DNA of 64,000 bases from Pseudovibrio ascidiaceicola (GTDB taxonomy: Bacteria > Pseudomonadota > Alphaproteobacteria > Rhizobiales > Stappiaceae), in the NCBI RefSeq assembly GCF_900114245.1, contig NZ_FOSK01000002.1:62001-126000 (forward strand). The letters run 5' to 3'. Within the stretch, counting starts at the first letter, position 1; each line of letters starts with the position of its first letter. A program made the position numbers and the translations under genes. Below, in pieces: positions 7,670 to 54,521 of this stretch. The notes below the pieces were generated by a model. The model had not been told where the DNA came from and did not search any database. It was given only the letters and a program-made list of their open reading frames with translations.

Positions 7670-8404
7670 TTAGCGCAAGTTGGCTTTTTCGTCGTAGAGG
7701 CTAAAGTCTACGAGTGTGCCAAGCATCTGCAGGTAAGCCACAAGTGCATCCATCTCAGTCACATCTTTGGCGTTGCCGTCGAAGTCACGGATGAGAACAT
7801 CAGGATAACGTTCTTCGAACCCTTCTGCTGCATCGCTGTCAGGCTCGGCCTGAGCGAGAAGATCCACTTTAGCGTTTGCAATCTGTTCCTCAGAGTAAGG
7901 AACGCCATACAATGCATTCACTTTCAGATGGTTCTCGATCTCGATTGTGGAGAGCTTGGCATCCATCAGGAATGGATAGCCGGGCATCACAGAGGTCGGA
8001 GACACTGAACGTGGGTTGATCAGGTGATCACGCTGCCACTCATCAGAGTACTTACCGCCCACACGAGCAAGGTCAGGACCGGTACGCTTAGAGCCCCACT
8101 GGAATGGGCGGTCATACATAGATTCCGCTGCCAGTGAGTAGTTACCGTAACGCTCCAGCTCGTCGCGCATCGGACGGATCTGCTGTGAGTGACAGGCATA
8201 GCAGCCTTCACGTACGTAGATGTTACGTCCAACAAGCTCAAGCGGGGTGTAAGGGCGCATACCCTCAGTTTTTTCGATCGTGCTCTTCAGGTAAAAAAGA
8301 GGCACGATTTCTACGAGACCGCCGATTGAGATCATGATGACGATGCCAACAATCAGGATCAGCGAGTTTTTCTCGAAGATTTGGTGTTTTTTCCAAGCAG
8401 ACAT
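7670..8404 (-). CDS. ccoO: cbb3 cytochrome c oxidase subunit II, monohaem (CcoO/FixO)
   Basis: Membrane-bound monohaem cytochrome c, 244 residues, that passes electrons to the CcoN haem b. It has an N-terminal helix (about 14-34), the family segment [16 protein letters not shown] with the haem site C68-x2-C71-H72, and a conserved C-terminal half containing the PTSVMPGYP region with the probable Met ligand. It starts 14 bases after ccoN and its stop overlaps the ccoQ ribosome binding site. Confidence 0.97.
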
Positions 8405-50394: not shown

Positions 50395-52188
50395 CTAAGC
50401 TAAACTACTGTCAGGTGCAAACTTATAGACCGTCTCCTCTTCCCTCTCTTCAACTAGCTCAAATCCTTGGCGGAGATAGAATGCGTTGGCGCGGCTTTTG
50501 GGGAGGACTTCGAGGCGGATGGGTTTGGTTTGGGTGGTGGCTTGTTGCTTCAGGAGGTTGAGGATCTTTGCTCCTATACCGCGACCTTGTGCATTCGGGT
50601 GGAAGTAAAGACGCTCCAGATAGAGGTGGTTTTGTTTGTCCCACAAAACGTAGAAGCCCAGAACGTCTTCGTTCTCGATGATCTTCCATGTAGAGGCAGG
50701 ATCAAAGCTGTCTTTGAAGTATTGCCGGTAGAGCTCATGGTCGAACATGCCATTGGCTTCCATATTGTCCTTCATAGCCAGATGGCAGAGGTCTGCGAGC
50801 AAGTCGAAGTCAGAGGAGTTTGCAGGTTCTAAGCACCACTTTGAACATTTCGGCGCATACTCATAGTAGTTGTTAACGCCCTCAGAATGTGTGAGGTGGA
50901 AGCCGTGGTGCTGGTAGAAGGCGTTGGCGCGGCTGATGCGGAGGGCGTCGAGGCGGATGGGTTTGTTTTGCTCATCCGCTTGATCCTTGATCTGTTGCAG
51001 GATCTTCGAGCCGATGCCTAGGCCTTGCGCTTCAGGTAGCAGGTAGAACATATCCAGATACAGGTGATCAGGGTGGTTCAGGACTACATAGAAGCCGATG
51101 GTTTTGCCGTTCCTCAGGATTTTCCGGGTCTTCTCAGGGGCGTACTCGCTTAGGAAGATCTCGCGGGCTTTGTCGTGCTGAAACAACCCATTGGCTTCCG
51201 CGCTTTCCTTCATGGCCGTATAGCGAATGTGCTGGAGTTCTTCGAAGTTTTCCGGCGCTGCTGTTTCAAATTGGAAAACAGGCTCAGGCGTGAACTGGTA
51301 ATAATTGTTGAACTCCACATTGTGCGTGAAGTTGAAGCCTTGTGCCTGATAGAACTTATTGGAGTTGCTGACACGAAGCGCACCCAAGCGGATTGGCTTG
51401 CTGACTTGAACTGCGTGCTGTTTGATGTTTGCAACAATCTGCGCACCTATGCCCTGCCCTTGTGCCTTCGGGTGCAGGTAGATCATGTCGAGATGGATGT
51501 AGTCCTGATATTCATGCACTGCTGTGAAGCCGAGCAATTCTCCGTCTAGCGCAATCTTTAGTGTGGCTTCCGGTTTGTAGTCTTCAAAGAAATGTCTGCG
51601 CGCAAGGGCGTAGTCCGTCAGACCGTTGGCTGCCCATTCGTCCTTCATTGCCTCATGTCGCAGGTTTGCAAGCTGTTCGATATCTTCCGGTTCGGCACGT
51701 TTCAGAATGAAAACTGGCGGACTTGGCTCGATGCTTTCCAGCGGGAGTTCGTAGTAGTTGTCGAAGTCTTCGCTGTGGGTATGCTGGAAACCGTGACGTT
51801 GGTAAAAGGCGTTGGCTTTGCTTTGTTTCAACGCACCAAGGCGGATGGGTTTTCCGTTTGAAACCGCATGTGCCTTGATCCGGGCGATTACTGCAGCTCC
51901 GATGCCAGTGCCTTGAGCGCTTGGGTGGAGGTAGAGATGATCCAGCCAGATGTGGTCTGGCCGGTCCCGCAGAACATAAAACCCAAGTATCTGCTGTCCG
52001 CTCACGAGCTTGAAAGTGTCTTCGCAGGCAAAGCTTTTCAGGAAACGCTCACGTGCTCTTTCAGGGTCGAAACGACCCAGCGCTTCGAGGCTTTCGCGCA
52101 TGGCCTGAACACGGATGTTTGCGAGGAGATCTGCGTCGTGTGGTTCCGCAGCGTAGACAATAAACGACACACCAATAACTTTCAGCAC
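50395..52188 (-). CDS. Protein of four tandem GNAT acetyltransferase domains
   Basis: 597 residues made of four consecutive ~147-residue GNAT units (about 9-148, 158-299, 304-445, 449-591). Each has the acetyl-CoA pyrophosphate loop, A-Q-G-x-G-I-G-A/S at 91, 242, 387 and 533, and the late Tyr of the active site (Tyr129, 280, 425, 571) in an AFYQxxGF-type motif. No unit has lost the binding loop. Repeats share LYLHPxAQGxGIG and KPIRLxAL blocks, so they arose by internal duplication. Substrate unknown. The GTG start at 52188 is preceded by a weak AGG; a GTG further in (MSFIVYAAEP) is possible. Stand-alone gene, convergent with the DUF1963 gene. Confidence 0.9.
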   Translation of the reverse strand: MLKVIGVSFIVYAAEPHDADLLANIRVQAMRESLEALGRFDPERARERFLKSFACEDTFKLVSGQQILGFYVLRDRPDHIWLDHLYLHPSAQGTGIGAAVIARIKAHAVSNGKPIRLGALKQSKANAFYQRHGFQHTHSEDFDNYYELPLESIEPSPPVFILKRAEPEDIEQLANLRHEAMKDEWAANGLTDYALARRHFFEDYKPEATLKIALDGELLGFTAVHEYQDYIHLDMIYLHPKAQGQGIGAQIVANIKQHAVQVSKPIRLGALRVSNSNKFYQAQGFNFTHNVEFNNYYQFTPEPVFQFETAAPENFEELQHIRYTAMKESAEANGLFQHDKAREIFLSEYAPEKTRKILRNGKTIGFYVVLNHPDHLYLDMFYLLPEAQGLGIGSKILQQIKDQADEQNKPIRLDALRISRANAFYQHHGFHLTHSEGVNNYYEYAPKCSKWCLEPANSSDFDLLADLCHLAMKDNMEANGMFDHELYRQYFKDSFDPASTWKIIENEDVLGFYVLWDKQNHLYLERLYFHPNAQGRGIGAKILNLLKQQATTQTKPIRLEVLPKSRANAFYLRQGFELVEEREEETVYKFAPDSSLA

Positions 52189-52678: not shown

Positions 52679-53242
52679 TTACTGCATACAGATGTTGTGT
52701 ATGTTGGTTGACAAGTTGTCGAAGATCTCCGGATCTTCGCTTGTGTTGCCAATCAAAACGGCGACTTCCAGTGCTGCTAGCACGAAATCGGATTTCACCA
52801 GCGCTTCTTCAGAGGACCAGCTGCCACTGTATTCCAGCAGGTCTGCCAACCAGACACGGTTGCGGCGAGCGAAAGTCGCAGCAAGTTCCTGAAGTTCATC
52901 CGGCAGTTCTTCGTCCTTATCGCCCAGCACCGCTGAGAGGAACAGTTCGCCACCATCTGCCATACCTGCCTGGAAGGCGGCAATGTATGTATCCAGCGCT
53001 CTGCGGAAGTGAAGGGTTTGCGTGGAAGGGTCACCCAGGATCTGCAGGAAGCGGTCGATGTACCTTTGCAGCACGGCATGCTCTACCCCCTTATTGGAAG
53101 AGAACATTTTCGAGATATCCTGCTCGCTTGTTCCAGTACTGCTGGCAAGCTGATCGACATCCAAGCCCAACAGCCCGCTTTCCCGGATCATGTAATCCGC
53201 AGTATCCAGTACAACGCTTCTATTGGTGACCACAACACCCAT
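52679..53242 (-). CDS. TetR/AcrR-family transcriptional regulator
   Basis: 187 residues. The N-terminal ~55 form the TetR helix-turn-helix (VLDTADYMIRESGLLGLDVDQLASSTGTSEQDISKMFSSNKGVEHAVLQRYIDRF). The rest is a helical ligand/dimer domain. The DNA-binding segment is somewhat unusual (EQDISKMF in place of the common KGTLYHYF). Regulated genes are not evident; the nearest candidates are the small membrane protein and the deacetylase. Confidence 0.82.
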   Translation of the reverse strand: MGVVVTNRSVVLDTADYMIRESGLLGLDVDQLASSTGTSEQDISKMFSSNKGVEHAVLQRYIDRFLQILGDPSTQTLHFRRALDTYIAAFQAGMADGGELFLSAVLGDKDEELPDELQELAATFARRNRVWLADLLEYSGSWSSEEALVKSDFVLAALEVAVLIGNTSEDPEIFDNLSTNIHNICMQ

Positions 53243-53399: not shown

Positions 53400-54305
53400 T
53401 CATAAGTACTTCGCTGCCACTTGATACAGATTAGAATGCCGGTTAACCAATAGTCTAAGATTATACGAATAACCACCTCCCAGCACACCTGCAAGTGGAA
53501 GTCCCTCATTTCTTACCAGTTTAAAGACCAGTTCTTCTCGTTTTCTCAGTCCCTCATCAGAGAGAGCAAGGCGCCCTAAGCGGTCATCATGATGAGGGTC
53601 AACACCCGCATTGAAGAACACCAGATCGGCTTTGAAGGTGTTGAGAACCTGCTTGAGCGTGTCCTCCAGGATCTCAAGATATTCGTCATCCTCCATGCCA
53701 TCAATCAGAGGCACATCCAGTGTGGAGGCTTTCTTTCGGACGGGATAGTTCTTTTCTGAATGGAGGGAGAGTGTGAAGACACTGGTGTCATGTGCGAAGA
53801 TATCAGCCGTCCCATCTCCCTGATGGACATCCAGATCAATAATGAGCACGCGGCGTGCCATGCGCATGGCCTGTACCGCCCTCACCGCGACGGCTACATC
53901 GTTGAACACGCAAAACCCCGCTCCTTGCGCGATACGGGCGTGATGCGACCCACCGGCAGTGTTGCAAGCGACACCATGTTCCAGAGCCAACATTGCCGTG
54001 AGCAAAGACCCTCCTGTTGCGCATTGCGCTCGGAAGGAAACGCTTTGGGTCATGGGAAAGCCGATTTCACGAGCGATGGCGTGGGGAACGTTGCAGCTGA
54101 GGACCTGATCTACATAGTCTTTTGCGTGCACCCGCAGCAGGTCTTTTCTGGAGATTGGCTCTGGCTCATGGAAATCATAAAGAGCACCGTCTGGATCGGT
54201 TTGTTTCAACCACTGAGCCAGTTCAGCATACTTGCGCATTGGGAACCGATGATTTTCGGGAATGTCTGCCGTGTAGGCTGGATGGTGCACGATTGGGAGC
54301 TTCAC
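53400..54305 (-). CDS. Histone deacetylase family protein
   Basis: About 301 residues from a GTG at 54305, with GAAGG upstream (the frame is open to 54386). Zinc-hydrolase signatures are present: GGSHHARIAQGAGFCVFND with the tandem His, DLDVHQGDGT with metal-binding Asp and His, and NAGVDPHHDD with the third Asp, plus GGGYSYN near the end. Bacterial members deacetylate acetoin-utilisation proteins, polyamines or acyl-lysines; the substrate cannot be read from sequence. It is divergent from the MATE gene and 1.2 kb from the four-GNAT protein. Confidence 0.9.
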   Translation of the reverse strand: MKLPIVHHPAYTADIPENHRFPMRKYAELAQWLKQTDPDGALYDFHEPEPISRKDLLRVHAKDYVDQVLSCNVPHAIAREIGFPMTQSVSFRAQCATGGSLLTAMLALEHGVACNTAGGSHHARIAQGAGFCVFNDVAVAVRAVQAMRMARRVLIIDLDVHQGDGTADIFAHDTSVFTLSLHSEKNYPVRKKASTLDVPLIDGMEDDEYLEILEDTLKQVLNTFKADLVFFNAGVDPHHDDRLGRLALSDEGLRKREELVFKLVRNEGLPLAGVLGGGYSYNLRLLVNRHSNLYQVAAKYL

Positions 54306-54521
54306 AAGGGCAGTACCTTCTCTGAAATCACTTTGGCTTTGTCGTTTCCTGATCCGAAAACTGGTTCCCATGTTTGGGAGGTACACTCTTATCTATAGCA
54401 GGTCTGCGCAATATGGTATGGACAAACGAAGAACAAACCAATATGCCAATGATACTTTGATTATCCAATCCATTTTGAGCTGCTTGCTGGTGCTGCACTC
54501 GTTCGTTTGAAGGTCTCCTGC

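Follow-up and report, generated by a model that had tools for sequence, protein, structure and literature searches.

A chain of four GNAT units whose line-up varies among Pseudovibrio species

A gene for four GNAT units

The stretch analysed here (hereafter the window) comprises 64,000 nucleotides of Pseudovibrio ascidiaceicola (contig NZ_FOSK01000002.1, positions 62,001 to 126,000), and on its minus strand, at 50395–52188, lies an open reading frame (ORF) of 597 residues that starts with GTG and stops with TAG. A preliminary description had taken the product for four complete copies of the GNAT acetyltransferase domain in one chain, a reading borne out by the ORF and by Pfam: PF13508 (E = 4.8e-51), PF00583 (3.1e-47) and PF13673 (7.7e-46) each cover four stretches of the protein, well past anything chance would give, and scores of 171.5 bits for PF13508 (cut-off 27) and 160.1 bits for PF00583 (cut-off 20.7) place it in the GNAT superfamily. 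The units belong to four of six types (A to F, see below) and are arranged as follows:

50395..52188, minus strand: four-GNAT protein gene, 597 residues; alternative start GTG at 52170 (591 residues); from the ORF, start-codon comparison and Pfam
51733..52167, minus strand: unit 1, type A; retains the signature residues typical of single-domain relatives (S26, L27, R32, R37, R41, H77, D136)
51280..51714, minus strand: unit 2, type B; from the unit tree, type identities and signature residues
50848..51279, minus strand: unit 3, type D; from the unit tree, type identities and signature residues
50407..50841, minus strand: unit 4, type E; Cys replaces an invariant Arg at unit position 19
51285..51302, minus strand: recombination junction, where the end of type B gives way to the end of type C known from Pseudovibrio sp. 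Ad37; the window itself lacks unit C; from a three-way DNA comparison

Translation may begin at the GTG at 52170, giving 591 residues, because this codon is conserved in all five genomes that share the upstream sequence, whereas at position 52188 two of them have GTG, two have TTG (itself a potential start codon) and one has GTA.

The acetyl-CoA loop AQGxGIG(A/S) recurs at residues 91, 242, 387 and 533, with exactly the spacings first reported (151, 145 and 146 residues), and pairwise identities of 39.7–48.3% between the units uphold the proposed internal duplication. The two blocks that had been cited as shared are slightly less uniform: KPIRLxAL is exact in three units and reads KPIRLEVL in the fourth, and AFYxxxGF is exact in three but begins KFY in unit 2, FYxxxGF being common to all four. 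The late active-site Tyr that had been noted in every copy is indeed retained as a catalytic-type Tyr (Y122) throughout, and all four units also share Q85, G90, N119, F121 and Y139. Each unit combines the Q/RxxGxG/A pyrophosphate loop with a predicted GNAT fold; AlphaFold models unit 1 alone with a mean pLDDT of 95.4 (57-row alignment) and the full chain as four GNAT folds with a mean pLDDT of 87.2 and a pTM of 0.57 (8-row alignment), the order of helices and strands being alike across the units apart from shortened strands. In the model, Y122 lies at the end of α4, the position at which a passage of PMC10936415 places the general-acid Tyr of VipF.

The repeats are unlikely to stem from an assembly error, because the units differ in sequence and separately assembled congeners carry comparable arrays at the same site. 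Identity as RimI, the N-acetyltransferase of ribosomal protein S18 (TIGR01575), was rejected: the whole protein scores 106.9 bits and exceeds the equivalog cut-off of 86.4 bits only as the sum of four stretches, the units scored apart giving 28.0, 31.6, 28.5 and 34.0 bits. Automatic annotation can thus label such a protein RimI through the summed weak scores of repeated domains. An anti-phage role was also considered and dropped, PADLOC returning no match for the GNAT, HDAC or DUF1963 proteins, which speaks of absence only.

Unit types and line-ups at one chromosomal site

Sixteen Pseudovibrio genomes, one per species and including that of the window (G000), were compared; contigs in this set match Pseudovibrio sp. 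Ad37 (G004), P. sp. Alg231-02 (G002), uncultured Pseudovibrio X9 (G009) and 151-G (G003), P. axinellae DSM 24994 (G007) and P. flavus RKSG542 (G013). A profile of the unit family matches at E ≤ 1e-12 in 12 of the 16, with no match at this threshold in G001, G008, G012 and G014. One chromosomal site carries the family in ten genomes, nine with at least three intact units and G005 with a single unit; it lies between fadJ plus a thiolase gene (where the contig reaches, and not in G003) and DUF6460 plus a TetR-like gene. In G011 and G013 a single-unit gene occurs in a different neighbourhood, and G011 and G006 each show one extra weak match. At the same site in G008 and G012, DUF6460 lies within about 200 nt of fadJ with neither a GNAT nor a TetR-like gene between or beside them, and the 14–15 kb compared in G014 and G001 hold no GNAT gene.

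The units of these arrays fall into six types. In a tree of 42 rows (omitting the weak matches of G008, G012 and G032, the remnant unit of G002 and the second fragment of D in G004), they cluster by position, not by genome, and form starred clades A (the first units), D, B+C and E+F, each with several genomes; E alone is unstarred (81/83), and unit 2 of G007 and unit 3 of G003 are weakly placed. Mean identity within types A to F is 63, 80, 77, 84, 73 and 58%, in every case higher than the highest mean identity to another type (43, 61, 61, 48, 54 and 54%, respectively), the closest pairs being B/C (61%) and E/F (54%); these means include the truncated G015_1, the partial G004_4 and the doubtful G003_3. 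The following line-ups were found:

Window: A-B-D-E
G004 (Pseudovibrio sp. Ad37): A-B-C-D, with D frameshifted at a 7-nt tandem repeat
G002: A-B-C, the start of a D joined to the end of an E, then F
G010 and G006: A-C-D, with E as a separate gene
G009: A-B-E
G003: A-D-F-like, a stop, then E with its own start
G007: A-C-E-F (or A-B-E-F)
G015: truncated A-B-E-F
G005: E alone

The ten genomes thus display nine line-ups, or eight by type if unit 2 of G007 is counted as B. Nine of the ten are compatible with the single order A-B-C-D-E-F; in G002, the D start fused to an E end still sits between C and F. Four different line-ups occur among the window, G004, G002 and G009, which a tree of flanking genes unites (100/100).

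Comparison with the close relative Ad37 points to how such differences may arise. DNA of the window and G004 is colinear (97.8%) through to the last part of unit B, past which the window continues with sequence found at the end of unit C in G004, and a three-way comparison confines the switch from B to C to about 18 nt (window 51285–51302). The difference from Ad37 is thus a clean loss (or gain) of a single whole unit, in frame and bordered by homologous unit ends. Values of synonymous difference (pS) are uneven: relative to G002, units A and B differ at 0.44–0.46 and five flanking genes at 0.14–0.23; relative to G009, the units differ at 0.58–0.78 and four flanking genes at 0.22–0.41; and relative to G010, unit A stands at 0.69, D at 0.37 and E at 0.345, with flanks at 0.33–0.58. 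Relative to G004, the units (0.09–0.14) stay within the range of the flanks (0.03–0.20). Because pS is uneven between units and flanks, we read the locus as a probable mosaic with exchange between lineages, the alternative being faster local mutation. Some units in G007, G009 and others visibly combine B and C sequence.

Two smaller observations concern individual units. The frameshift in unit D of Ad37 (L041, ~8165–8190) falls in a 7-nt tandem repeat with three copies, compared with two in the window, and this repeat could slip. Residues at the C-terminus of window unit 4 suggested a trace of a unit F; DNA comparison gave this no support, and it was dropped.

Beyond the genus, a class-wide draw, with at most 10 first-look candidates scored per genome, gave matches at E ≤ 1e-12 in 19 of 385 genomes, with several units in one frame only in the genome of the window. 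Among the relatives retained (80 named ones of the 116 from genome contigs), multi-unit ORFs occur only in five Pseudovibrio loci; all 75 other loci, including that of P. flavus, have one unit per ORF. A second match in a separate ORF was found at four of these 75, three being weak matches in other genes (L089, L103, L120) and one a unit split over two ORFs (L127). A plasmid collection searched in protein mode yielded 21 records with matches, and the 15 records listed all have single-unit places of 417–480 nt. Within the searched set, multi-unit chains of this family therefore look confined to part of the genus Pseudovibrio. The four-domain arrangement had been called unusual, and widespread, characterised proteins of this kind, which would contradict that, did not appear in a search that covered this unit family and not the chains of other GNAT families. 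Literature listings returned no paper on a four-GNAT chain, the main texts of two comparative-genomics papers on Pseudovibrio (PMC5959193, PMC4811931) contain neither ‘acetyltransferase’ nor ‘GNAT’ (0 occurrences), and passages of a further Pseudovibrio paper (PMC5112248) do not describe the locus.

Type-specific residues and competing explanations

Single-domain relatives provide the reference for what has changed in the array. In a set of 49 of the 75 non-array loci, hand-picked without a formal rule, S26, L27, R32, R37, R41, H77 and D136 are conserved in 47–49 sequences. Unit 1 (type A) carries all seven residues; units 2–4 lack L27, R32, R37, R41, H77 and D136, unit 3 having Lys at position 37 and retaining S26. 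The replacements are type-specific: position 77 is H in A, M in B, C and D, and R in E and F, and position 26 is S, E, E, S, N and E in A to F, respectively, both with a within-type conservation of 1.00.

Across the structural elements counted (omitting G015_1, G004_4 and G003_3, and with no significance test), 38 of 117 positions distinguish the types: none of 8 in the P-loop, 2 of 16 in α3, 7 of 8 in β4, 4 of 10 in β3, 3 of 6 in β5 and 13 of 36 in α1–loop–α2. In the GNAT fold, the P-loop is the CoA-binding element, and the walls of the acceptor site are formed by α1–α2 and the β4–β5 region. Because the CoA side is conserved and β4 is type-specific, the pattern suggests the same cofactor with different acceptors. 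The preliminary description had offered ‘four substrate specificities’ as one possibility, and comparison of the sequences supports it indirectly: the residues differ between types, are largely fixed within types across species and differ least near the CoA loop, but α1–α2 is hardly enriched.

The claim that no copy shows obvious decay stands but for one point. The CoA loop and the Tyr are intact in all four units, and pairwise dN/dS of window units against congeners is low, at 0.03–0.29 plus a value of 0.39 against the truncated unit A of G015 (19 of 23 comparisons computable). By unit, the ranges are 0.03–0.39 for A (6 of 8 computable), 0.08–0.23 for B (4 of 4), 0.05–0.29 for D (4 of 4) and 0.14–0.20 for E (5 of 7). 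The reservation concerns unit 4, with its Cys at position 19.

The reading that we prefer, and to which we give a probability of roughly one half, is a multi-specificity N-acetyltransferase that in-frame recombination among its units would have built up and pared down. The protein would be a beads-on-a-string enzyme of four independently folded GNAT units, each of which would bind its own acetyl-CoA and possess its own acceptor pocket, such that several different amine substrates would be acetylated. In the Pseudovibrio lineage, duplication of a single-domain enzyme would have produced an array with as many as six unit types, A-B-C-D-E-F; homologous recombination among the units would then have deleted some of them in frame and swapped sequence between lineages, and therefore nearly every species would have its own selection of units. 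We infer the ancestral six-unit array, the activity of all four units, the difference between their substrates and acetyl as the group moved. That all of this holds together, with a six-unit ancestor, a different amine for each unit, species sets made by in-frame recombination and four active units in the window, is a tentative proposal. The substrate class is likely an amine on a small molecule or peptide, and the fast turnover of units would suit a shifting range of amine-bearing natural products encountered in host-associated marine life.

Several observations weigh against a multi-specificity enzyme of this origin. The proportion of type-distinguishing positions in α1–α2 (13 of 36) is hardly above the average (38 of 117), so that only β4 and the CoA side stand out, and many dS values are near saturation. 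Position 19 of unit 4, a Cys, is Arg in all 49 single-domain relatives and in the seven other type-E units. Some relatives have a broken unit: D in G004, D/E in G002 and A in G015. G003 violates the order A-B-C-D-E-F, and its F-like unit is weakly placed in the tree; unit 2 of G007, here typed as C, shows a weak grouping with B (90/72) and has a mixed sequence. The full-length pTM of 0.57 makes the mutual placement of the four units uncertain, including when the chain, with its four units, is compared with the usual tandem GNAT arrangement of two lobes with crossed last strands. Finally, a passage of PMC10936415 states that just one domain seems to be active in each of the tandem GNATs examined to date, and by analogy some units here could be non-catalytic despite intact motifs.

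This last point is the core of a competing explanation, in which one or two units would be catalytic and the others, as in MshD or VipF, would bind CoA or substrate or hold the structure. It would follow the rule among characterised tandem GNATs (PMC10936415, in part), and the loss of L27, R32, R37, R41, H77 and D136 from units 2–4, together with that of Arg19 from unit 4, agrees with it. We nevertheless regard it as rather unlikely: the pyrophosphate loop and the Tyr of the FY pair are intact in all four units, dN/dS is low, and the lobes of VipF are less than 14% identical (as given in a passage of PMC10936415), compared with 40–48% between the units here. The array could alternatively multiply active sites of one specificity, or avidity for a large substrate, through processive or multi-site acetylation; in keeping with this, the catalytic-side residues are the same in all units, and species differ in which units they have. 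Such a gain in dose would, however, require none of the differences at positions 26, 27, 32, 37, 77 and 136, which distinguish the types and are fixed or nearly so within them, and an obligate processive chain is difficult to reconcile with a separate E gene in three genomes and a single unit in G005. This explanation is unlikely too. Processive acetylation, a possibility raised at the outset, is not supported as the obligate reason for the chain, because units have been lost or split off in relatives, some of which have three units or one, with E as a separate gene in G010, G006 and G003.

The locus neighbours are an HDAC-family gene (PF00850, window 53400–54386) and a MATE efflux gene, and the neighbourhood points to no operon partner or substrate. 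The array and the HDAC-family enzyme could in principle form a reversible acetylation pair, for example on polyamines, a suggestion that we consider highly improbable: the HDAC gene is present without any GNAT in G008, G012 and G014, and conversely arrays are kept where it exists only in pieces (G006, G009) or is absent between the TetR-like and MATE genes (G003). Likeness of the GNAT fold, with 728 matches in the Protein Data Bank (PDB) at E ≤ 0.001, does not give the substrate, and PaiA-type polyamine acetyltransferase (NF053587) was rejected as an identity, the whole protein reaching 39.7 bits against a cut-off of 250 and no single unit matching at E ≤ 1e-4.

If the multi-specificity reading is correct, a change of line-up alters the set of compounds that a strain can acetylate. 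Why GNAT domains duplicate within one chain is called unclear in the field, as only one domain seems active in the tandem enzymes examined (a passage of PMC10936415). At a fixed site and in closely comparable species, the locus offers a natural series of chains with between one and four intact units, one unit being of ancestral type and several diverged. Isolated units and whole chains can accordingly be compared, which bears on whether domain duplication creates new specificities.

Neighbouring genes and comparison with known systems

Other features of the site and genome merit description in their own right. The TetR-like gene (window 52679–53242) and the array are both missing from the otherwise kept fadJ–DUF6460–HDAC–MATE block of G008 and G012, so the two were either gained or lost, one on each side of DUF6460. 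A gene that is 30–34% like the neighbouring quinone oxidoreductase lies between DUF6460 and the array in G010, G006, G003 and G005, and not in the window, at these positions:

L039 5732–6319: quinone-oxidoreductase-like gene
L040 4991–5578: quinone-oxidoreductase-like gene
L044 2257–2844: quinone-oxidoreductase-like gene
L047 5219–5869: quinone-oxidoreductase-like gene

A second, unrelated GNAT cluster in the same genome (G000:C31 705000–722000; L053 4470–5012 and 8577–13420) consists of nine separate GNAT genes that are 22–53% identical to one another and that the unit profile does not match. Seven of these genes are consecutive, with gaps of no more than 12 nt or overlaps of 1 nt. Relatives of this cluster are present in all 16 Pseudovibrio genomes, with 3–12 matches each at E ≤ 1e-10, and are largely clustered. 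In the Foldseek search with the full-length model, large ciliary axonemal proteins (8glv_LZ, 8j07_d0, 9fqr_Xg, 9d2f_J) rank high with poor r.m.s.d., perhaps reflecting GNAT-like repeats in eukaryotic structural proteins.

The nearest known systems are the two-domain tandem GNATs, such as MshD, ORF14 of the clavulanic acid cluster (2WPX), GlmA (5KF1), VipF and MAB_4324, which likewise hold several GNAT domains in one chain. Entries of this kind rank near the top when the full-length model is used as the query of the fold search, these matches being at domain level only (TM-score per query 0.16–0.19, r.m.s.d. ~20 Å). The known proteins have two domains, which in VipF are less than 14% identical, and one is active in the characterised cases (PMC10936415, in part). 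By contrast, the window protein has four units that are 40–48% identical, with all CoA-loop and Tyr motifs intact and a line-up that varies among sister species. Class III (type V) bacterial lysine acetyltransferases also contain multiple GNAT domains, but within about 400 residues; Eis is the only characterised case named in a passage of PMC6456759, and its homologues additionally carry a sterol-carrier fold (a passage of PMC5799202).

Single-domain GNAT relatives in Kiloniella, Hahella, Stappia, Marinomonas, Reinekea and more (Proteobacteria and others) belong to the same domain family, the 49 aligned sequences being 45–57% identical to unit 1, and differ in having one unit per ORF at all 75 loci. 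Outside the GNATs, the AlgE mannuronan epimerases are modular enzymes with recombining catalytic repeats, in which a few module types occur in different combinations.
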